DNA from: a virus
Virus record (IMG/VR): IMGVR_UViG_3300030101_002876
Span: 2,286-23,901 of that record
Reading direction: 5' to 3' (one strand)
DNA length: 21,616 bases
Position numbers and translations under genes: made by a program. The notes beneath the pieces were generated by a model, which was not told the DNA's origin, ran no database searches, and saw only the letters and a program-made list of their open reading frames with translations. Shown piece after piece: positions 4,104-21,364 of the stretch; the first letter of the stretch is position 1; each line of letters opens with the position of its first letter.

Positions 4104-5095
4104 CGATATGAGACTCTTTTCATTTTAGCATTTTTAATCGGGAGAACAGTTCTATCCAGTCGCCCTGATATCTCTAAGCTCCATTCATCCCCGACAGAGT
4201 ACGTCCCCTCAGAAAACCTGACCGACATTCCTCTCCCGACATTCTGATATTTGCAATTTACTTCCTCATTTTCTACTGTGATATCTGTTCCTAGATTGTC
4301 AGAGCTTCCGACAAAGGTTGAGAAAGTGACTCCAGTAATAGAACTCCCTAGAGCCTTTGTACCTCCGCCCGTTATAATTATTTTTATTTTATCATATCCA
4401 GTAGTCGGAGTCCCTGAAACGTCTAAAATGTTTCCTGTGCTTGACGAGTCTCTATTGACAATCCTTAAAAATCCTCTTTGTTTTAAGGCCTCGTCATTTT
4501 GCTCTAGGCTTATTTTACCCTGAGAAATCTTATCGAGCCATCCAGTTTCGGCCTCATTGTAAACAATATCTCTAATCGAATCAGCCCTCTCGGAATCCAT
4601 CGGACGAATAATGCTCTCTACGGCTAAATGACTAGCGCTCCTGACAATAATTTCAGGATAATTTCTTGCTGTAGTATCTTGAGCATTGATTCCGACTTGC
4701 TGATATATAGGGAAAGGGATATAGGAGTCGATAAATGATGACGCTCTTTTGACCGCATCAGACTTTAAGCTCTCCCAGTCTCTACCTCCCTCGAAAACAT
4801 GGCTAGTAATATCGTCAGAATCAGGAGCCGTCAGATATAGCTCTAACCTATCCTCAGAAACGACATATCTATACTCCTGAGTAGATGATGGCTGAGCGAC
4901 TACAGGATTCATTTCAGCGCCATTTAGAAATAACTGTTCGACATAACCTGACTCATAGAGATAATATAAATTCGCTACTCCACTAGCGACCCAGTTATTC
5001 GCTAAGACTTTACGCTGATTAAAAAAACTTAAATTAGGTTCGACAAATAGCAAATCTGTCGAAGTGTTGCAGTAGGTTTCTTTCGCTGTACTCAT
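4100..5095 (-). CDS. Head-tail connector-like structural protein with beta-rich C-terminus
   Basis: The 331-aa product is a probable virion joining protein. Its middle, around residues 110-210, contains helices such as DAVKRASSFIDSYIPFPIY and SASHLAVESIIRPMDSE followed by RADSIRDIVYNEAETGWLDK. This recalls the four-helix DUF1320/gp15-like head completion proteins that bind below the portal. The N-terminal ~105 residues are beta-rich. The C-terminal ~110 residues (GTPTTGYDKIKIIITGGGTK onwards) look like an added beta-sandwich. The fused layout is larger than the usual 130-150 aa connector. It starts at an ATGA overlap with the metallophosphoesterase gene and ends in an ATGA overlap with the next gene. 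The connector assignment is moderate; the flanking domains are unassigned. Confidence 0.62.
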   Translation of the reverse strand: MSTAKETYCNTSTDLLFVEPNLSFFNQRKVLANNWVASGVANLYYLYESGYVEQLFLNGAEMNPVVAQPSSTQEYRYVVSEDRLELYLTAPDSDDITSHVFEGGRDWESLKSDAVKRASSFIDSYIPFPIYQQVGINAQDTTARNYPEIIVRSASHLAVESIIRPMDSERADSIRDIVYNEAETGWLDKISQGKISLEQNDEALKQRGFLRIVNRDSSSTGNILDVSGTPTTGYDKIKIIITGGGTKALGSSITGVTFSTFVGSSDNLGTDITVENEEVNCKYQNVGRGMSVRFSEGTYSVGDEWSLEISGRLDRTVLPIKNAKMKRVSYR

Positions 5096-6135
5096 TTTCT
5101 ATTCCTTAAAAATTTTAAGTAGTCGCACCCTGTCTCTAAGTCTAGAATGACCTGAATAAATTTATTGTCATCCTCGTTGTATTTTGGATTTATGATGGTT
5201 ACTGGGCAATTAAAAATATTGCTATCATGTAGCCCTAATTTATCAGCATATCCGTCTATCCTTTTAAACGATGCAACTTGTATCGCATGAGAAATTAAAC
5301 CCGATGACGGGTCTTTTAAAACATTGTATCCCGAGACATGGATATGTCCTGCCGTCACTATATGGTCTCTAAATCCCATCTGAACCGCTCTCGCTACTCC
5401 GTGAGCAGTATTCCACATCGAATTCCCTTTGAAAGTATGCCGAGCATTGATGCGACAAGCACGGCCATTCGGAAAATTTAGATTAATTCTTATCCCGTGA
5501 TTATTATAAACGGCCTTTGTCCTTCTAATCATAAACTCTAGAGGGTCTCCATCCCCAGTCCATACGTCATGATTTCCTCCGACAATATATAGCCAGTCTA
5601 GGGATGAAATGAAATGCTCAGTCAATAGCCATGATTCTTTGGCTGTAGTGGATTGCTGAGAGTATAGACTGGCTAATCTTCCGACCCAATTATTTTGAAC
5701 GTCTCCGAGATTCCCTGCGAACATTCCTTCCGTTTCATTGATTAATCTGACATTATTTAAAATTTCTGATAAGTCTGTTCCGTCATCATCGACATGAGGG
5801 TCTCCGAAATGAGCGATTCCGATAGCTCCATCCATCTTGATATTTACGTTGACTTTATTATGCCAATCTCTATGAGCTTTTTTCTTTTTGTATTTTTTGA
5901 CTCGATATTCTATCAATTCATCGATAGATAATTCTCTCTCAGGTTCGGGAGTCTCAACCTCATAGGGCGAAGTCGAGACCAGTTTTACTTTATGGGAACG
6001 ATACCCGCAATCTCGACATCTATATCTCGGCTTTTGTTTGCTCTTATCTTTATGATTAGAGACCCCGTCTCCGTGCAGTCTTTCTGAACCGCACTTATAA
6101 CATAAGGCGACATCATTTCCCTTTCTTACTGTCAT
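5092..6135 (-). CDS. Zinc-ribbon calcineurin-like metallophosphoesterase
   Basis: This 347-aa protein carries an N-terminal zinc ribbon (C12, C15, C40, C43), a charged linker, and a calcineurin-like phosphoesterase domain. The metal-binding motifs are in the right order: GDPH (D112, H114), GNLGD (D145), GGNHD (186-190), and GHIH (263-266). Enzymes of this fold use two metal ions to hydrolyse phosphomonoesters or phosphodiesters, including nucleic acids. The Cys4 ribbon suggests it binds DNA or RNA. It is unusual to find it between the lysozyme and the head-tail connector gene. It overlaps the lysozyme gene by 23 bases and the next gene as ATGA, so it is transcribed with late genes. Substrate is unknown. 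Confidence 0.9.
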   Translation of the reverse strand: MTVRKGNDVALCYKCGSERLHGDGVSNHKDKSKQKPRYRCRDCGYRSHKVKLVSTSPYEVETPEPERELSIDELIEYRVKKYKKKKAHRDWHNKVNVNIKMDGAIGIAHFGDPHVDDDGTDLSEILNNVRLINETEGMFAGNLGDVQNNWVGRLASLYSQQSTTAKESWLLTEHFISSLDWLYIVGGNHDVWTGDGDPLEFMIRRTKAVYNNHGIRINLNFPNGRACRINARHTFKGNSMWNTAHGVARAVQMGFRDHIVTAGHIHVSGYNVLKDPSSGLISHAIQVASFKRIDGYADKLGLHDSNIFNCPVTIINPKYNEDDNKFIQVILDLETGCDYLKFLRNRK

Positions 6136-6601
6136 AAACTCCCCTCCTGTACCAACCGAACCAAAATTTCTCTAATGATGGCTTTTTAGTCACTAAACGA
6201 GCATAGAATAAAACCTTATATGATTTTAGTCTTTCATTCTCTAGGCCTTTACTAGAGCGAATCGTATTTTTCCCGATTCTACCATCTACCTTGACTTTAA
6301 ACTTTCCTTTCCCGTTGATAGCGTTTTGTAAAATCTTGACAGCCCTAGTCTGCCCCATATTTACGCACATATCAAAATATGTAAGTCTAAGTTCGCTAGG
6401 TAATTCTTTTGCCCGTGAGGGGATAAAATAATGCGTTTTATAGATATTTATCGCATCATCCCTAGATAGGTTTTTAATATCTAAATCGGGGAACGCTCTT
6501 TTTGAGATTCCCCAATTTGTTTCACCGCCCGCATCATCTTTGTCATTGACGTATCCTCCCTCATGTCCTAAGACAACGTCAATCATCTCTTTAAACGTCA
6601 A
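6113..6601 (-). CDS. Endolysin, glycoside hydrolase family 108 (N-acetylmuramidase)
   Basis: This 162-aa lysozyme cleaves the glycan backbone of peptidoglycan to release progeny. The family signature is clear at the N-terminus: GHEGGYVNDKDDAGGETNWG, with E14 as the expected catalytic acid. Residues from about 95 onward (ILQNAINGKGKFKVKVDGRI) match the peptidoglycan-binding part usual in this family. There is no signal peptide, so a holin is needed for access to the wall. The start is a TTG at 6601, directly after the TGA of the upstream gene, with GAGG eight bases before it. Proteins of this family normally begin a few residues before the HEGG motif, which agrees with this start. Three membrane proteins lie upstream and provide holin candidates. 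Confidence 0.93.
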   Translation of the reverse strand: MTFKEMIDVVLGHEGGYVNDKDDAGGETNWGISKRAFPDLDIKNLSRDDAINIYKTHYFIPSRAKELPSELRLTYFDMCVNMGQTRAVKILQNAINGKGKFKVKVDGRIGKNTIRSSKGLENERLKSYKVLFYARLVTKKPSLEKFWFGWYRRGVYDSKKGK

Positions 6602-15196: not shown

Positions 15197-16402
15197 TTAC
15201 CATCTCTTACTAATTGCTTTATTGTGAATAATAGGGAATCGATATTCTATCAGATAAGTTGACGCATCTAGACAATGAGTCCGCTCGATGTCTGATTTAT
15301 CGATACCTCCTTTCTTGTCTCTTGTGCATTGCTCAAAATCTTTTATCAATTCTTTACATTTAGGGTCTATTGACAGGCTTATATTACCATCTGCCGACAG
15401 TAATTTCCTATTAAGAGAGTTAATCCTGTCTTTTTGAGAGGGATGACTCTTTCTTGCCCTGACTATAAATCCATTTTCCCTCAGGATAGCAAAGTCGCTC
15501 CTAGATGACTGAGTAGACCTAGAATTCCCCGCAGGGTCAGGATAGATGACTTTTATATCAGGATACTTTCTTTTTAATGCTTTACACATCTCCTCAGTAT
15601 TGCTATTATGTAGAATAATCTCATCAAAATAATGAATCGTCCCATCTGACCACTCACAGCAAAGCACAGCGCACATCTTCGAGACGTTAAAATCTAATCC
15701 AATATATTTGACGTCAGGTAGATTGTCAGCAGTCTTGAGATGCTTAGTCCTGTCAAAGTTGTAGGCTACTCTATTTTGAGCAGTCTCAAAACTGGCCTCA
15801 AACTCCTGAGCGAAAATCTTTGGGTCTAATGTCCTCTTAGCGTTCTCTATTTCTTTTTTAGGTATCCACCCACCCTCTGAACTCTTGAACTGCCATGACT
15901 TCCAGTCGCTATCTTTCTCCTGACCCTTCAAGTATAAGTCATAGAATCCATTAGAGAACCCATCAGGAGTCCCTATGAATAAGGCCTGAGAGTTTGGGTC
16001 TGTTGTCATCATAGGATAGATGACCTCCTCCCATACGTTAGCTTTTTGATATGCGTATTCATCTAGGACAACTCTGTTCAAGTGAGAGCCTCTTAATTTA
16101 GACGCATCTTCAGACCCCTTGACTGATATCTCACATCCTGCAATATTGATTGTCAGCGTTGAATTATTGATGACAGCATAGGGAGTCTCTCTCGCTATCT
16201 TGGTCAGGATAGGGAATACGACCATGCGTCCCTGACGATATGTCGGAAGAATTATCCATCTACGTTCCCCCTCTCTCAGCTTTCCCATTAGTAGCCACAT
16301 GATAGACATATAGGTTTTCCCAAATCTTCGCCCTGCTACTACGACCTTATATTTAGATTTATCAAGGGCTATTTTCTCCATAACTGGAGTCACTTTAAAC
16401 AT
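15197..16402 (-). CDS. terL: Terminase large subunit
   Basis: This 401-aa protein is the packaging motor ATPase and nuclease. Walker A is AGRRFGKT (residues 23-30), and Walker B is VVLDEYA (111-117) with the catalytic Glu after Asp. SLGTP-type coupling motif appears as ALFIGTPDG. The C-terminal RNase H-like nuclease carries YIGLDFNVSKMCAVL with its metal-binding Asp around residue 236, the DPAGNSR segment, and a terminal Asp in HCLDASTYLI. The ATG at 16402 overlaps the upstream gene by eight bases. Both domains are complete, with no sign of inteins or introns. At 401 aa it is at the short end of the family. Confidence 0.96.
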   Translation of the reverse strand: MFKVTPVMEKIALDKSKYKVVVAGRRFGKTYMSIMWLLMGKLREGERRWIILPTYRQGRMVVFPILTKIARETPYAVINNSTLTINIAGCEISVKGSEDASKLRGSHLNRVVLDEYAYQKANVWEEVIYPMMTTDPNSQALFIGTPDGFSNGFYDLYLKGQEKDSDWKSWQFKSSEGGWIPKKEIENAKRTLDPKIFAQEFEASFETAQNRVAYNFDRTKHLKTADNLPDVKYIGLDFNVSKMCAVLCCEWSDGTIHYFDEIILHNSNTEEMCKALKRKYPDIKVIYPDPAGNSRSTQSSRSDFAILRENGFIVRARKSHPSQKDRINSLNRKLLSADGNISLSIDPKCKELIKDFEQCTRDKKGGIDKSDIERTHCLDASTYLIEYRFPIIHNKAISKRW

Positions 16403-16754
16403 CAGGATTGTCTATTTCATCGATGCCAGTTTTTAGTAATTGGATAGGCTCATGAGACTCGACTTGCATTTTCTGAACTGGCTTTCCTTCTATTCTATCC
16501 GCTATGAATTGAACAGCCCATGCTTTACCTGATATGGCATAAGCAAACGTCGTTCTCAAGACTGCCTCCTGCATAGTCATCTCGCTTAAATCAGCGTCAT
16601 ACTTCTTTTTAATAGCCTCAGCAAGCTCCTCGGTTACTGGTTCCTCCCCTATCTTTCTCAGTAGGTCAGGGATGCTACTCGTCCCCTTTGGCCTTCCTGC
16701 TTTATTTATATTCTTCGGATTATCTAAGAATCCGCCTTTGCCCGTTTTATTCAT
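16395..16754 (-). CDS. Probable terminase small subunit (DUF5681-like N-terminus)
   Basis: This 119-aa protein starts MNKTGKGGFLDNPKNINKAG and continues RPKGTSSIPDLLRK. This G.F..NP.NINK.GRPKG motif is known from a family often labelled DUF5681, found directly before large terminases. The rest is helical, with a segment KAWAVQFIADRIEGKPVQKM. The GRPKG element resembles an AT-hook-like DNA contact. Overlap with the large terminase gene supports the small terminase role: binding the genome and feeding it to the motor. Another DNA-binding role cannot be excluded. Confidence 0.75.
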   Translation of the reverse strand: MNKTGKGGFLDNPKNINKAGRPKGTSSIPDLLRKIGEEPVTEELAEAIKKKYDADLSEMTMQEAVLRTTFAYAISGKAWAVQFIADRIEGKPVQKMQVESHEPIQLLKTGIDEIDNPDV

Positions 16755-16769
16755 ATCTCTTAACTTGTT

Positions 16770-17315
16770 TTAGCTTGTTTCATCAAGCTCATTTTTATTA
16801 ACTGGAATCCAAGATTTCGACCATTCTGAATTCTCTATCAGGTCGCTTTGAGGTATCCCTTGCCTATTTGCAAGCCTTACAACCTCCTCCCTTTCCATCT
16901 GTAATCTACTCATTATTTCCTCAATAGAGCAATCTGAGGCAATCATCTCAGAAACAATCTCAGCCATCTTCAAAACTAAATGAGTTCCCCTAGCTCTATT
17001 ATGGCGAATCGTAGCCATCTGAGACGTTCTCCTATCCAATCGAAGTAAGTAACAAACTGGGACTAATCCGTTCGTCATTTTATAAATATCCTTATCCTCT
17101 GAGACCTTCCATCTATGAAATCCGTCGATGATTTCTTTCTTCTCGTTTGCGACTATAGGCTGAGTCCAACCATTCTCTAATATGCTTATTTTTAGCAATT
17201 TTAACTCGCTAGGATAGACCTTATTCGGATTATAGTTATTCGGAATAAGTCTATCTCTATCCTCCCAATAAACAGCATTAACTGGCTGTCTCTCCCATCC
17301 TTTATTTTTTCCCAT
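16770..17315 (-). CDS. ParB/Srx-fold protein, IbrB/YbdM-like
   Basis: This 181-aa protein has the ParB/sulfiredoxin fold: PNNYNPNKV near residues 25-33, a LLKISILENGWTQPIVANEK strand-helix segment, IIDGFHRW (62-69) as the nucleotide-site motif, and ATIRHNRARGTH (101-112). A helical region with a predicted helix-turn-helix follows (MIASDCSIEEIMSRLQMERE). It is encoded immediately after a PAPS-reductase-family gene, overlapping it by 14 bases. That pairing matches E. coli IbrA/IbrB (YbdN/YbdM), described as regulators of immunoglobulin-binding surface proteins on prophages. The biochemical reaction is unknown to me. It could bind DNA, or use ATP/CTP through its ParB-type pocket. Confidence 0.85.
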   Translation of the reverse strand: MGKNKGWERQPVNAVYWEDRDRLIPNNYNPNKVYPSELKLLKISILENGWTQPIVANEKKEIIDGFHRWKVSEDKDIYKMTNGLVPVCYLLRLDRRTSQMATIRHNRARGTHLVLKMAEIVSEMIASDCSIEEIMSRLQMEREEVVRLANRQGIPQSDLIENSEWSKSWIPVNKNELDETS

Positions 17316-18537
17316 GTTTTATAATAGCCTCCCTATCTGATATTTTTAGCGATTGTCTATGAGTTGTCCCTAGCCTGTGCATCGAGCCTCCCTGCCTGTC
17401 TTTCCTGTCTCCCTTTATCGCTAACCTACAAAAGAATTTCCAACTCGCTCCAGTAATTAAATGAGGCTCTCCATCAGGTATCCTATCGTCAGTCTTTCTA
17501 TAGTGAGTCCTGATAAGAGTATTGATTCTCCCCTTCATCGCTCTTTTTTCCTGACCCTTATAGTTGTCTATCAACACATCAAAATACTTCCTCCAATCTA
17601 AATGAGTAGGCTTGAAATCTGTATGCTTAGAGCGACCTATTCTGTGTCCGTATAGTTCCGTGTTTGCGTATCTCATGGCCGTCCTAACTCCTGAGACCCT
17701 ATCGAGCATTTTCTCCCATAACTCGGGGAAACATTCTTTGTATAAATGCAGACTCCTGACTGGCTCCTCTCCGAATGGAGGACAGACTCGCTGTTGAATC
17801 CAAGACTCATAGAGTTTAGTTTTATTGAAAATGTCATAAGTCTTATTATAGTCAAACCCATTATCTGAGACATATTTCCAAACGTCCTCGCTCTTCCAAT
17901 CATAGATAGGATAACCATTTATCGCCCTGACGTATCGATGCTTGTTCTTACCGACTTTTATAGGCCTCTTATAATTTCTTAGCCATGCGAGGTCGCCCTC
18001 TTTTGATGCGATTGCTCTATATCTCCTTAGAGATTCCTGAGTCCTGATTCCCATAACTACAGCGTAATATTTGCCCTCAAACATCAATTTAGTAAACGAC
18101 TCAACATCCATCCCCGCTCCATCTATGAATTTAGGATGCTCTGTTATAGCCTGCTCAGGAAGTTCTCTGACCCATAAATTTTTTTTAGTTTTATCCCAAC
18201 AGTACCACCAAGGCTCATCGTAAGAGCATGAATTTCTGTGCTTTATAGGTAGACAAAACCATTTGAGATTAACCTCAGGCCATTTTGAGACCCTGTCGAC
18301 GTATTCGATAGTCGTTGGATGGATACATTCCTCGTCGATAAAAACAACGTCTAAGGGCTTATCGATTCTCTGTTGTTTTCTTACCTCTAGACATAATTGG
18401 AGGACGGCTGTCGAATCCTTACCTCCTGAAAACATGACGACGACATTATCATAAGCCTCAAAAAGATAGTTTATTCTTTCAATGGCCTTATCATAAACAT
18501 TCTCCTCAATTTCCTTCGCTTTTCTGATAGTCGCCAT
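17302..18537 (-). CDS. PAPS-reductase family protein, IbrA/YbdN-like (DUF3440)
   Basis: This 411-aa protein has an adenine-nucleotide alpha hydrolase (PP-loop) domain with SGGKDST at residues 37-43, FIDEE around 65, and GIRTQESLRR around 168. A C-terminal region follows with YDWKSEDVWKYV, RVCPPFGEEPVRSLHLY and GASWKFFCRLAIKGDR. Length and order match E. coli IbrA/YbdN. The domain is also found in DndC, which activates sulfur for DNA phosphorothioation, but no DndA, DndD or DndE gene is present here. The gene starts two bases after the upstream stop and overlaps the ParB-like partner. It may adenylate a substrate, activate sulfur, or have a regulatory role. The TGA-free full length argues it is functional. 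Confidence 0.88.
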   Translation of the reverse strand: MATIRKAKEIEENVYDKAIERINYLFEAYDNVVVMFSGGKDSTAVLQLCLEVRKQQRIDKPLDVVFIDEECIHPTTIEYVDRVSKWPEVNLKWFCLPIKHRNSCSYDEPWWYCWDKTKKNLWVRELPEQAITEHPKFIDGAGMDVESFTKLMFEGKYYAVVMGIRTQESLRRYRAIASKEGDLAWLRNYKRPIKVGKNKHRYVRAINGYPIYDWKSEDVWKYVSDNGFDYNKTYDIFNKTKLYESWIQQRVCPPFGEEPVRSLHLYKECFPELWEKMLDRVSGVRTAMRYANTELYGHRIGRSKHTDFKPTHLDWRKYFDVLIDNYKGQEKRAMKGRINTLIRTHYRKTDDRIPDGEPHLITGASWKFFCRLAIKGDRKDRQGGSMHRLGTTHRQSLKISDREAIIKHGKK

Positions 18538-18538
18538 A

Positions 18539-18787
18539 TTATATCACTTTATCATTTTCTAAGCATTTAGGACACTTCTCTCGCTTTTTACCATACGTTA
18601 CAAACCCCTTATAGTATCGAACCATGTCTGACTCTCTCCCGACCTCTTTTTCCCAACAGCATCGACAATGAATACAATATTTTATCCTGATATCTGCCTG
18701 CTCTGAATCTTTGTTTTTATATCTACCTGATTTTTTCGGCTTATATGAACTCTGACGCTTTCCCCAAACCACAAAGTCTCGACTCAT
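18539..18787 (-). CDS. Small zinc-ribbon protein upstream of IbrA-like gene
   Basis: The 82-aa product has two Cys clusters: YCIHCRCCWEKE around residue 38 and KCPKC near residue 73. They probably form a treble-clef or ribbon zinc site for nucleic acid or protein contact. The N-terminus is basic (RQSSYKPKKSGRYKNKD). Its ATG overlaps the cupin stop as ATGA, and its TAA is two bases before the IbrA-like start, so it is co-expressed with both. It is not a recognised family member. It may be a partner or DNA tether for the neighbouring enzymes. Confidence 0.75.
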   Translation of the reverse strand: MSRDFVVWGKRQSSYKPKKSGRYKNKDSEQADIRIKYCIHCRCCWEKEVGRESDMVRYYKGFVTYGKKREKCPKCLENDKVI

Positions 18788-19542
18788 TTATGATGCCTCG
18801 CTGAGACTCCCCTTATAATTGTTTTATTTATCATCGGATGAAAGTTGTCCTCTGCGCCAAAATCAGAATCAGGATGAAAAGCAATGACGTCCATCGAATC
18901 TCTTTTGTCAGTAGTGAATCGATGCTCTTTTTCAGCGTCAATGATAAAAATTAAACCCTCAGATAAATAATACTCCCATGACCTAGTATGACAAATCCCT
19001 GAACCCCTAGCAACTATCCCGACTCTGACTGATGGATGAGTATGAAATGTCTGACTGATGTTTTTTGGGAAATGTAAGTGATTAAGACAACTCATCCCCT
19101 TCTTTACTGGAGGAATAATCAGGGAATCTGTGCATCCGTCAATGTACTTTAAGCGACCCTCTTTCTCTATTGCTCCCCCTACCATAAAAAAGGGACTATC
19201 CTCATAAATTTTAATTATCAAAGCCTTACCCTTAGAGTGCTGAGTAAATGTGAAATTGTCTCCGACTGATGAATACATCCCATCGGTCAAATTAATAGGC
19301 TTTCGAGATTCGGTTGCTATAGAAAACTCTCCCTGATAGACATATAAATAATGACCGCTTTTAGGTTCTTTTTTTTGCTTGAAAATATATTTAGAATCTT
19401 TCTGACTGCTACAATGAACCTCAATCAAAAAACGGCCACTCTTAAAAAACTTAATCAGGCCATGAGTATCAAGCCAACTCGTAAAAGCTGTCTCTAGCGT
19501 CGTTTCCTGATTTTTGTTCTTATAAGTTTTGGGGATTTCCAT
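18784..19542 (-). CDS. Two-domain cupin protein
   Basis: This 252-aa protein has two beta-barrel cupin halves, at about residues 35-115 and 140-225. The second has the metal-binding pattern: NHLHFP (H155, H157), FHTHPS (H167, H169), a glycine turn (GIVARGSGICH), and EHRF (H207) followed by DVIAFHPDSDFGAEDN. The first half lacks the His set and is probably structural. The conserved end FHPDSD...HPMINKTIIRG looks like a known phage/bacterial cupin group, but I do not know its substrate. It starts 49 bases inside the upstream membrane gene with no clear SD. Its place directly before the IbrA/IbrB-like genes suggests a shared pathway. Possible roles are small-molecule binding, isomerase or oxygenase. 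Confidence 0.85.
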   Translation of the reverse strand: MEIPKTYKNKNQETTLETAFTSWLDTHGLIKFFKSGRFLIEVHCSSQKDSKYIFKQKKEPKSGHYLYVYQGEFSIATESRKPINLTDGMYSSVGDNFTFTQHSKGKALIIKIYEDSPFFMVGGAIEKEGRLKYIDGCTDSLIIPPVKKGMSCLNHLHFPKNISQTFHTHPSVRVGIVARGSGICHTRSWEYYLSEGLIFIIDAEKEHRFTTDKRDSMDVIAFHPDSDFGAEDNFHPMINKTIIRGVSARHHK

Positions 19543-19676
19543 TTATCGATTTTTTTCTCTATTCTATTAAGTCTCCAAACTAAACTCATCAACAGACATA
19601 ACATCATCAGCATCGTAAATTCCCAATATGGGAAATATTCAACGCTAAAAACTAGCTCCCAATAATGTCTAAGCAT
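19494..19676 (-). CDS. Single-pass membrane peptide in accessory block (60 aa)
   Basis: This 60-aa product begins MLRHYWELVFSVEYFPYWEF, has a Met/Leu-rich span at about residues 21-34 (MLMMLCLLMSLVWR) and ends in a strongly basic tail (KLIRTKIRKRR). GAGG lies five bases before the ATG, and the start overlaps the ParB-like gene's stop by eight bases. The 49-base overlap with the cupin start is long, so one of the two starts may be misplaced. It would place a basic cytoplasmic tail at the inner membrane. Function unknown. Confidence 0.62.
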   Translation of the reverse strand: MLRHYWELVFSVEYFPYWEFTMLMMLCLLMSLVWRLNRIEKKIDKWKSPKLIRTKIRKRR

Positions 19677-20250
19677 AAGACCTCACTAAGACCATCAAAG
19701 CGTCCTCTGTGTCTGTTAAATCATTATTTATCTTGATTTTATTAATAACCCTCATTAATTCCTCTCTATTTTCTTTTGATAAATCTAAAATAAATTCAGT
19801 CCTATTTCCCTTGACTACGTCGCTATCTTTTGCCGACTCTGTAGCGTCCTCAAATAATTCAGGCATATCAAAAGATGGATTGGGAACATTTAATCCCCAT
19901 CCTTTCAATTCATCGTAGTCCCATTCGTTCGCTATCTTATCCCAATTCCAAGAGCCTCCATTAGCGTTGAGCCTGATATTTAGCTCTCTCTCCATCCTTT
20001 CGTCTAGTTCTACATAAACAGCAGGCACATCATCCATCCCTAGAGACTTAGCGACTCTGATTCTCTGATGGCCTCCGACTACTACATTGAACCTATCAGG
20101 ATTTTTATTCAAAATGACTGGCTCAACAAACCCAAATTTCTCGATACTGAATTTTAATTCTTTAAACTGAGACTCTGTTATTTCTCTAGGATTATACTCT
20201 GACTCATGTAGTTCAGTAAGTTCAACCCTCTGCGATTTACCTTCTAGCAC
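19669..20250 (-). CDS. ParB-like protein (phage type, no methylase domain)
   Basis: This 193-aa protein starts with GTG at 20250 (GGAG five bases upstream). Motifs of the phage ParB-like group are clear: SEYNPREI, IEKFGFVEPVILNK, VVVGGHQRIRVAKSLGMDDV, then ELNIRLNANGGSWNWDKIAN and YDELKGWGLNVPN. In many phages and mobile elements this N-terminal module is followed by a DNA methyltransferase domain. Here the protein stops after a short helical C-terminus (TEFILDLSKENREELMRVIN), so the methylase is missing or was never present. It differs strongly from the second ParB-like protein at 16770-17315. It may be a DNA-binding regulator, a nuclease, or a modification partner. Confidence 0.85.
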   Translation of the reverse strand: MLEGKSQRVELTELHESEYNPREITESQFKELKFSIEKFGFVEPVILNKNPDRFNVVVGGHQRIRVAKSLGMDDVPAVYVELDERMERELNIRLNANGGSWNWDKIANEWDYDELKGWGLNVPNPSFDMPELFEDATESAKDSDVVKGNRTEFILDLSKENREELMRVINKIKINNDLTDTEDALMVLVRSYA

Positions 20251-20419
20251 CCTTTCTCCTTTTTTGCTTAAGCGGACATTTCGACATCAGTTCTAATTTA
20301 TTAGGATTTTTTGATATTCCGCAATATTTATCATTTTTATAGATTCCGCAGAACGGACAATTCCCTCCAACTACGTTTTCAGGCGTTTTTTTATACTTTA
20401 AATGACAAAACTCATTCAT
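20237..20419 (-). CDS. Small Cys-rich protein (60 aa)
   Basis: The 60-aa product has CPFCG and YCG elements (GGNCPFCGIYKNDKYCGISK) and a basic end (KQKRRKGARR). Together with Cys5 and Cys48 this suggests one small zinc site. The ATG overlaps the end of the 59-aa ORF by eight bases, and the stop lies 14 bases inside the ParB-like gene. No strong SD is seen, so coupling is likely. Probably a nucleic-acid-binding accessory factor; no family recognised. Confidence 0.65.
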   Translation of the reverse strand: MNEFCHLKYKKTPENVVGGNCPFCGIYKNDKYCGISKNPNKLELMSKCPLKQKRRKGARR

Positions 20420-20591
20420 CTTGGTTAGATGTTAGCCTAACAGATATTCCGAACTCAGAGAGCGCATTTGCGAGCTTTCTTACCATCATTTCAAACTCAT
20501 CTCTATCGACTTCATCATTCCGAACAACCCTTAAAGTCCATCCATTTTCTTTTTTAATTAAACTGACATCATCAAAAGTAGGCTTTTTCAT
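20412..20591 (-). CDS. Small acidic protein after replication gene (59 aa)
   Basis: This 59-aa ORF fills the gap behind the replication gene. Its ATG at 20591 overlaps the upstream TGA as ATGA and has GGAG six bases before it. The stop overlaps the next gene. The product begins MKKPTFDDVSLIKKENGWTL, continues with strands RVVRNDEVDRDEFEMM and a helix, and ends GISVRLTSNQDE. The pattern of alternating strands and helices suggests a small folded domain. Function unknown. Confidence 0.8.
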   Translation of the reverse strand: MKKPTFDDVSLIKKENGWTLRVVRNDEVDRDEFEMMVRKLANALSEFGISVRLTSNQDE

Positions 20592-21364
20592 TTTATCTCC
20601 TTCTCTACGTTATAGGGAGCTTTACAGCAGGGACTCCCGTTGGCAATTTCAAAGGGAAAATTCGGACGATGTTCTTTCCCGCACTTTGAACAGTAGGCAG
20701 TAAATTGACCAGTCACCTCATCCCTCTTGAACTTAGAAAAATCAATTCCTGAGGACTGTTTCTCATCATCCTCTCCAAAGTCCCAAGTCTTGACGCACAT
20801 CTTCCATTTTTTGATTTTTGTCTTTCCACGATACCAGTTGACAGACTCATAATGATTCCAAAACCTAGAGGCATTGTCTAAATAATTAGGAATCTTTTTT
20901 TCTAAGAAATATTCTTCAACCTCTTTTAGTGTAGGCCTTGCATAATTTGTTTTCTTTTTAATTTCATTAGATTCTATTTTATTATCTTCTATTATATTAT
21001 TCAGACCTTTCTCAACCTTTCTAGACCTTTCCTGACCTTTTATCAAATCAGGATAATTAGACTCGGCTCTTCGATGACCGATTTTCTGATTCTTCTCAAA
21101 TCCTAGGAACTGGACGCAAACATTCTCCTCAAATGCGACGAGTTTATATTTTACCATCTCTTCAATCTTGTTTTTTATCCATTCAGGACTCACCTCACTT
21201 GATGGGATGCAAAGATATTTTATCTCTGTACAGTTTCCCGTCATTTTGCCATAATCATCCATAAATGGCAACATTCTCATATAAAGCCATTGACCCTCCA
21301 TTCCTAACTCATTAAAAATTGGGTCTATTGCTATAGTCCTATTTATCATTCTCCCCTTTGCCAT
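20588..21364 (-). CDS. Replication protein with C-terminal zinc ribbon
   Basis: This 258-aa protein is a probable initiator or helicase loader. Its N-terminal ~100 residues (MAKGRMINRTIAIDPIFNEL, LYMRMLPFMDDYGKMTG, then a winged-helix-like region with SPEWIKNKIEEMVKYKLVAF) match the DnaD/replisome-organiser type start of many phage proteins. Around 165-195 the sequence RFWNHYESVNWYRGKTKIKK, followed by a WKMCVKTW helix, is the usual DnaT/DnaD-like C-terminal element. A zinc ribbon follows (CSKCG, then PCCKAP), which is less common. AGGGAG lies seven bases before the ATG. The gene overlaps the HNH nuclease by 26 bases. Confidence 0.83.
   Translation of the reverse strand: MAKGRMINRTIAIDPIFNELGMEGQWLYMRMLPFMDDYGKMTGNCTEIKYLCIPSSEVSPEWIKNKIEEMVKYKLVAFEENVCVQFLGFEKNQKIGHRRAESNYPDLIKGQERSRKVEKGLNNIIEDNKIESNEIKKKTNYARPTLKEVEEYFLEKKIPNYLDNASRFWNHYESVNWYRGKTKIKKWKMCVKTWDFGEDDEKQSSGIDFSKFKRDEVTGQFTAYCSKCGKEHRPNFPFEIANGSPCCKAPYNVEKEIK

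Follow-up and report, generated by a model that had tools for sequence, protein, structure and literature searches.

Systems that join a PP-loop enzyme to a ParB-like protein are the closest described relatives of the locus treated here. In the Dpd and phage preQ0 systems (DpdA, the ParB-like DpdB and QueC; phages Rosebush and 9g) the two occupy a pre-terminase slot, and the DNA of Rosebush carries preQ0 at ~28% of G (PMC6884629). The Dnd, Ssp and type-4 BREX systems combine a PP-loop enzyme resembling 3'-phosphoadenosine-5'-phosphosulfate (PAPS) reductase, namely DndC, SspD or BrxP, with a ParB-superfamily protein, DndB; like DndB, DpdB belongs to the ParB superfamily, and both come from systems that modify DNA (PMC12839542). 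In the CmoA/CmoX/CmoY systems, for which DNA hypermodification has been shown, a PP-loop amide ligase, in some cases with an amidotransferase domain, has a ParBc partner: ParBc proteins accompany CmoX/CmoY, and a homologue of Asn synthetase there couples glycine to the carboxymethylcytosine of phage DNA (PMC12783734). The published IbrA/IbrB pair likewise consists of a PAPS-reductase-like protein with a DUF3440 domain and a ParB protein (phrog_2302 and phrog_2159). Here we analyse a stretch of viral DNA of 21,616 nucleotides, called the window throughout (positions 2286-23901 of the 23.9-kb IMG/VR virus record IMGVR_UViG_3300030101_002876), whose IbrA/IbrB pair belongs to the published one by profile and gene order. 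It differs in standing within a four-gene core, together with a cupin and a further ParB-like protein (ParB2), directly before the terminase. This core recurs as a cassette and may serve to modify phage DNA.

Results

Scanning IMG/VR from the cupin alone returned 137 relatives when one sequence served as query and 187 when an alignment did. We analysed 81 loci, which were reduced to 52 non-redundant ones by removing cupins more than 90% identical. Across these 52 loci, with mostly unrelated terminases, the gene order of the window recurs far above chance. Of the 49 loci with enough sequence, 45 have a ParB gene as the cupin's immediate upstream neighbour on the same strand, usually overlapping it or at most 10 nt away; among the other four, L002, L084 and L023 (the last re-cut as L405) still have ParB close upstream. 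Downstream of the cupin, IbrA follows within three genes in 45/46 loci, IbrB is present in 39/46, and the large terminase subunit (TerL) comes within eight genes in 28/30. The median pairwise identity across the cupin loci is 17% for TerL, as against 57% for the cupin, 54% for IbrA and 61% for IbrB. With TerL mostly unrelated while the cupin, IbrA and IbrB are conserved, the data suggest a mobile cassette passed between phages and not the common descent of whole genomes. Identity correlation, as a sign of co-evolution, was not discriminating (cupin-IbrA r 0.31, cupin-TerL r 0.51); the case for a cassette is thus built on gene order and on how well the genes are conserved, and draws nothing from agreement between trees. 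Five bacterial genomes (L094, L096, L097, L140 and L147) also carry the phage-type ParB-cupin-IbrA order, probably as prophages.

A first-pass annotation of this DNA had proposed a single linked functional block, a view that it would have given up had the homologues lain in random, unlinked positions. We found the opposite, and the conserved order bears the proposal out. The same annotation had named the cupin and a zinc ribbon as steady partners of the pair. The cupin is indeed a steady partner; the zinc ribbon is not, since its homologues, like those of the membrane peptide and of the small Cys-rich protein Zn60, were found only in the close relatives L002, L003, L082 and L083, and all three were rejected as steady partners.

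The cupin has AraC_binding as its best Pfam match and also matches Cupin_2 (E ~5e-6). Its AlphaFold2 model (predicted local distance difference test, pLDDT, 89; predicted template modelling score, pTM, 0.85) contains two barrels, i.e. a bicupin, which together with an invariant HxH...H motif places it in the cupin superfamily. In the C-terminal barrel H167, H169 and H207 are invariant (42-82 sequences) and, judging from the alignment, are likely metal ligands. Invariance extends to E126, R130, K132, Y133, C137, D139, C152, Q164, R173, C184, H223, D227, D232 and H235, within a total of ~40 invariant positions. Foldseek retrieved bicupins with E down to 5e-11; DUF861/(S)-ureidoglycine aminohydrolase ranks among the best PDB matches and has the two-barrel fold in common with the window cupin. 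Despite the similar fold we rejected this assignment, as neither Pfam nor NCBIfam gave such a match. Indeed, the identity to DUF861 bicupins of 11-16%, taken with the invariant H167, H169, H207, R173 and three Cys, suggests a separate family. Cultured phages gave no cupin of this type: a search of 50,697 phage records at E 1e-5 was negative, as was one that started from a second family member with the limit relaxed to E 0.01. One match lies on a Paraburkholderia replicon. The literature that we searched contains no description of a cupin together with PAPS reductase and ParB, so that the cupin as a steady cassette partner is apparently undescribed so far; the absence of this subtype from the 50,697 records may explain why.

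Chromosomal relatives of the cupin occur in Bacteroidota, Planctomycetota, Verrucomicrobiota, gammaproteobacteria, Frankia and others. An Asn-synthase-type SGGxDS PP-loop gene lies at most two genes from the cupin in 20 of 69 such loci, where shuffling gene positions within loci gives an expectation of 12.3 and none of 2000 shuffles reaches 20. Hence, a link between the cupin family and PP-loop ligases exists outside phages too. In L101, L129, L098, L144, L156 and other chromosomal loci the cupin adjoins Asn-synthase-type genes with no named product; these are possible unrecognised biosynthetic clusters. In Xenorhabdus stockiae (L164) and Chromobacterium subtsugae (L161) it stands beside an AMP-ligase-like gene, accompanied in Xenorhabdus by GTP cyclohydrolase II, a neighbourhood that looks like a small-molecule cluster. 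A second, independent link between a cupin and IbrB is found in mycobacteriophage Gaia, where the PAPS reductase gp103 is followed by gp104 (L093, 5299-6198), a fusion of the two (Ectoine_synth E 1e-32 plus ParB_N) that joins them physically. In contrast to the window cupin, that of Gaia is a single domain of another family, that of ectoine synthase.

IbrA matches the Pfam families PAPS_reduct (E 1e-17, 65 bits; cut-off 22.5) and DUF3440 (E 9e-11, 42 bits; cut-off 25) as well as phrog_2302 (E 2e-82), and is thereby a member of the IbrA family (DUF3440/phrog_2302). It carries the motifs SGGKDS, DxE and GIRTQES and a DUF3440 C-terminus; the PP-loop and GIRxxES are kept across the family. IbrB is identified by its match to phrog_2159 and its adjacency to IbrA, which it overlaps by 14 nt. 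It contains an NRARGTH motif and a DGFHR box, not the GERR box of ParB. Its model, of moderate confidence (pLDDT 75), shows a ParB N-domain and then a helical part resembling a helix-turn-helix, and its best Foldseek matches are Noc, ParB and KorB (E ~1e-7 to 1e-6), with sulfiredoxin and SbnI weaker. ParB2, the first core gene of the cassette, matches ParB_N (E 6e-11) and phrog_498, the ParB-DNA methyltransferase family (E 1.5e-29); these profiles group it with the ParB domain that ParB-DNA methyltransferases of phages carry.

Further genes join the core in some loci. In roughly one in four of the 52, a second PP-loop gene stands between cupin and IbrA. Six of these loci have a class II glutamine amidotransferase (conserved N-terminal MCG; GATase_6/7 profile matches) next to it, and seven have the PP-loop gene only; among the seven, L047 and L056 are fragments at contig ends, and their PP-loop gene may be IbrA itself. 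A scan from the amidotransferase side gave 13 loci, 11 of them with the cupin; L407 has the order amidotransferase, PP-loop enzyme, ParB, IbrA, IbrB, without a cupin. A PD-(D/E)XK-like gene stands between IbrA and IbrB in some loci, and more generally methyltransferase, glycosyltransferase or PD-(D/E)XK-like genes adjoin some IbrA cassettes, which we counted in favour of DNA modification. The cupin as a general partner of IbrA was rejected: it is absent from all 160 loci of two other IbrA clades, 132 of which have IbrB. The cupin thus marks a subtype, while IbrA-IbrB, often with ParB, forms the general core. Two loci seen in passing deserve mention. At the right end of Microbacterium phage Leaf (L092) an IbrA-type protein annotated as adenylyltransferase adjoins two glycosyltransferases, an acetyltransferase and a methyltransferase, which makes this another candidate DNA-modification cluster. 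The M. abscessus prophage prophi79-1 (L397) has a tandem pair of ParB genes of gp1 type, along with IbrA, IbrB and a methyltransferase, and the terminase comes soon after.

A comparison of cluster-B actinophages bears on the target. In the first 6 kb of Athena, Arbiter, ChrisnMich and Sour (L085, L394, L395 and L396), orthologous gp1 ParB (49-58% identity) and TerL (54-62%) flank different cassettes. In Arbiter and Sour the slot between them is filled by DpdA-QueC-QueD-QueE-FolE, in ChrisnMich by DpdA alone, and in Athena by IbrA-IbrB together with two small genes. No record is shared between the 52 mycobacterial records with Athena-type IbrA and the 47 with DpdA; in this set of mycobacteriophage records Dpd and IbrA exclude each other. 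The cassette that takes part in the swap is an IbrA-IbrB one that lacks the cupin, and we carry the swap over to the cupin subtype because IbrA, IbrB, ParB and position are shared.

In the window itself, ORF (open reading frame) calling confirmed the six minus-strand genes, and their spacing, that the first-pass annotation had placed in a packed run between a replication-type gene and the terminase (Table 1). The order is ParB2, membrane peptide, cupin, Zn protein, IbrA, IbrB, small terminase subunit (TerS), TerL. Besides the IbrB/IbrA overlap, the Cys protein and the cupin share 4 nt, the cupin and the membrane peptide 49 nt, and the membrane peptide and ParB2 8 nt; IbrA and the Cys protein are 1 nt apart, and IbrB and TerS 15 nt. 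TerS forms the downstream border of the cassette, with the packaging module (TerL) beyond, and upstream of ParB2 the same run continues through Zn60, a 59-amino-acid protein and the replication-type gene. Pfam and PHROG family scans gave no match for the 82-amino-acid Cys protein, and the membrane peptide is likewise without a secure family. Elsewhere in the window, positions 5092-6135, within the structural gene region, read like a protein with a zinc ribbon and a metallophosphoesterase domain (GNHD motif), and positions 6113-6601 read like an endolysin (EGGYVNDKDDAGGETNWGIS).

Table 1. Genes of the cassette and its surroundings in the window
Feature	Positions	Strand	Basis or remark
TerL, terminase large subunit	15197-16402	minus	tblastn to phage terminases, <=42% identity
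TerS, terminase small subunit-like	16395-16754	minus	DUF5681 E 8e-9; phrog_2538 weak
IbrB-like ParB/Srx-fold protein, 181 aa	16770-17315	minus	phrog_2159 E 1.6e-59
IbrA-like PP-loop ATPase, 411 aa	17302-18537	minus	PAPS_reduct and DUF3440 matches
Small Cys-cluster protein, 82 aa, probably Zn-binding	18539-18787	minus	lineage-specific accessory
Two-domain cupin, 252 aa	18784-19542	minus	AraC_binding/Cupin_2 and model
Membrane peptide, 60 aa, single helix, basic tail	19494-19676	minus	hydrophobic segment seen in sequence
ParB2, ParB_N protein, 193 aa, GTG start	19669-20250	minus	PF02195; GGHQR box
Zn60, small Cys-rich protein, 60 aa	20237-20419	minus	ORF; overlaps ParB2; lineage-specific
59-aa protein	20412-20591	minus	ORF calling
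Replication-type gene	20588-21364	minus	ORF calling

Discussion

Altogether, we read the locus as a PP-loop/ParB cassette for the modification of nucleic acid in phages, of the subtype that includes a cupin, and as one that probably forms an amide or amine on phage DNA, a reading that we judge to be evenly poised. That the block might be a nucleic-acid or nucleotide modification system had been raised by the first-pass annotation as a possibility, and the conserved context of the cassette lends it support.

On this proposal ParB2, IbrA and IbrB would form the core, the cupin would define a distinct, widespread subtype, and the cassette would most likely act on the phage's own DNA before packaging. 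IbrA, as a PP-loop ATPase, may adenylate a carbonyl or carboxyl group, either of the target base or of a small molecule that is later joined to it; AMP would then give way to ammonia or an amine. In some relatives the ammonia could come from the dedicated class II glutamine amidotransferase that adjoins the second PP-loop enzyme. The cupin, presumably metal-dependent, would prepare or complete the added group. The ParB-like proteins may deliver the chemistry to DNA, by analogy with what is thought for DpdB in the preQ0 systems and perhaps with the ParBc proteins beside CmoX/CmoY, and the modified phage DNA would be protected from host nucleases. More tentatively, and as plausible rather than probable, we advance that phages which have escaped cultivation share a widespread and hitherto undescribed route of DNA hypermodification. 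A PP-loop enzyme of PAPS-reductase type would here work with a new bicupin family and two ParB-like proteins to place an amide- or amine-type group on DNA, and the amidotransferase and the second PP-loop enzyme would be plug-ins that yield chemical variants.

The likeness to the described systems has limits. The window block stands in a slot equivalent to that of Dpd, yet family scans found in it no transglycosylase, QueC, QueD, QueE or FolE, and we do not class it as a Dpd system. Nor do we class it with Cmo: the window block has no carboxy-SAM synthase, C5-methyltransferase or Asn-synthetase-type ligase, no CmoA or CmoX was seen there or, as far as they were sampled, in the other cassettes, IbrA is of the PAPS-reductase type, and PMC12783734 mentions no cupin.

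Several points weigh against the modification of DNA by amide or amine chemistry. We know of no modified nucleoside from any of the IbrA phages found here. The amide chemistry is proposed because of the partners, while IbrA itself is PAPS-reductase-like and not an Asn-synthase or QueC, and the amidotransferase is absent from most cassettes. The core contains no plain base-attaching enzyme (tRNA-guanine transglycosylase, TGT; cytosine-C5 methyltransferase; hydroxymethylase), which leaves the first step unexplained. No IbrB was found downstream in 7 of 46 loci, and in 49 of the 69 chromosomal loci no PP-loop gene lies at most two genes from the cupin. Furthermore, the chromosomal relatives may serve small-molecule or glycan pathways, so that the phage target, too, could be a small molecule. 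Finally, IbrA/IbrB of E. coli have been described as regulators (co-activators) of prophage genes (PMC4490671, PMC4541368).

The small-molecule possibility is the rival that survives best, although we consider it unlikely. Here the cassette would make or attach a small molecule (a nucleotide derivative, a protein-nucleobase conjugate or a glycan amide of the cell envelope) and would thereby block either host defence or other phages; DNA would not be the substrate. Chromosomal cupin relatives adjoin Asn-synthase-type, AMP-ligase, GTP cyclohydrolase II and NeuB-like genes, a glycosyltransferase 4 gene lies upstream of the cassette in L070, and QueC-family PP-loop enzymes conjugate nucleobases to proteins in anti-phage systems, according to one report (PMC13279940). 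However, the most constant component of the cassettes is their ParB-like, probably DNA-binding partners, and it is with a preQ0 DNA-modification operon that IbrA-IbrB swaps.

Sulfur chemistry was among the possibilities raised by the first-pass annotation. On this reading IbrA would be a DndC/SspD-type enzyme installing phosphorothioate or thio-bases, or the cassette would block a sulfur-based host defence. The best matches of IbrA are indeed PAPS reductase, DndC and BrxP models, and Dnd systems likewise contain a ParB-superfamily protein, DndB (PMC12839542). Against this, no Cys is invariant in 40 close or 14 broad homologues of IbrA. We rejected IbrA as a PAPS reductase (CysH), which would require the catalytic Cys of the ECGLH motif, and its scores fall far below the NCBIfam CysH cut-off. 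As a DndC it was rejected at 37 bits against a cut-off of 290, with no other Dnd/Ssp match among the five proteins in the PADLOC scan. No cysteine desulfurase appeared among the neighbour proteins scanned with Pfam, and instead it is the amidotransferase that recurs. The lack of an invariant Cys and the low scores argue against CysH-type reduction and a DndC-like cysteine mechanism, though not against every sulfur reaction; with partners that suggest amidotransferase/Asn-synthase-type chemistry, the sulfur reading is weakened to the point of being improbable.

Just as improbable, in our view, is control of gene expression, in which IbrA/IbrB would be DNA-binding regulators of prophage or host genes, and the cupin, as an AraC-like sensor barrel, and ParB2 would be ligand-sensing or DNA-binding parts. 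The annotation of IbrA/IbrB as co-activators, the AraC_binding match of the cupin and the resemblance of the IbrB model to Noc/KorB fit such a role. Yet catalysis is suggested by the PP-loop ATPase motif, which is invariant across the IbrA alignment, and by the many invariant cupin positions; moreover, a glutaminase-type amidotransferase and a second PP-loop enzyme fit a regulator poorly. That the block is no more than a set of unrelated accessory (moron) genes gathered loosely at a pre-terminase hot spot is very improbable: the small Cys and membrane genes do differ between relatives, and IbrA/IbrB lack the cupin throughout the two other clades, but order, overlaps and membership are conserved across phages with mostly unrelated terminases, which contradicts it.

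In summary, IbrA/IbrB genes are common in phages and are currently annotated either as sulfur metabolism (PAPS reductase) or as regulators, whereas a role in DNA modification is suggested by the context that they keep across phages and by their exchange for preQ0 genes. This role is testable in the already cultured Pipefishvirus mycobacteriophages. If it is true, a large class of misannotated phage genes would be explained, the bicupin would represent a new enzyme family, and the base chemistry of the DNA might prove new as well. A counter-defence of this kind would then be carried by many phages that are not in culture and by some prophages.

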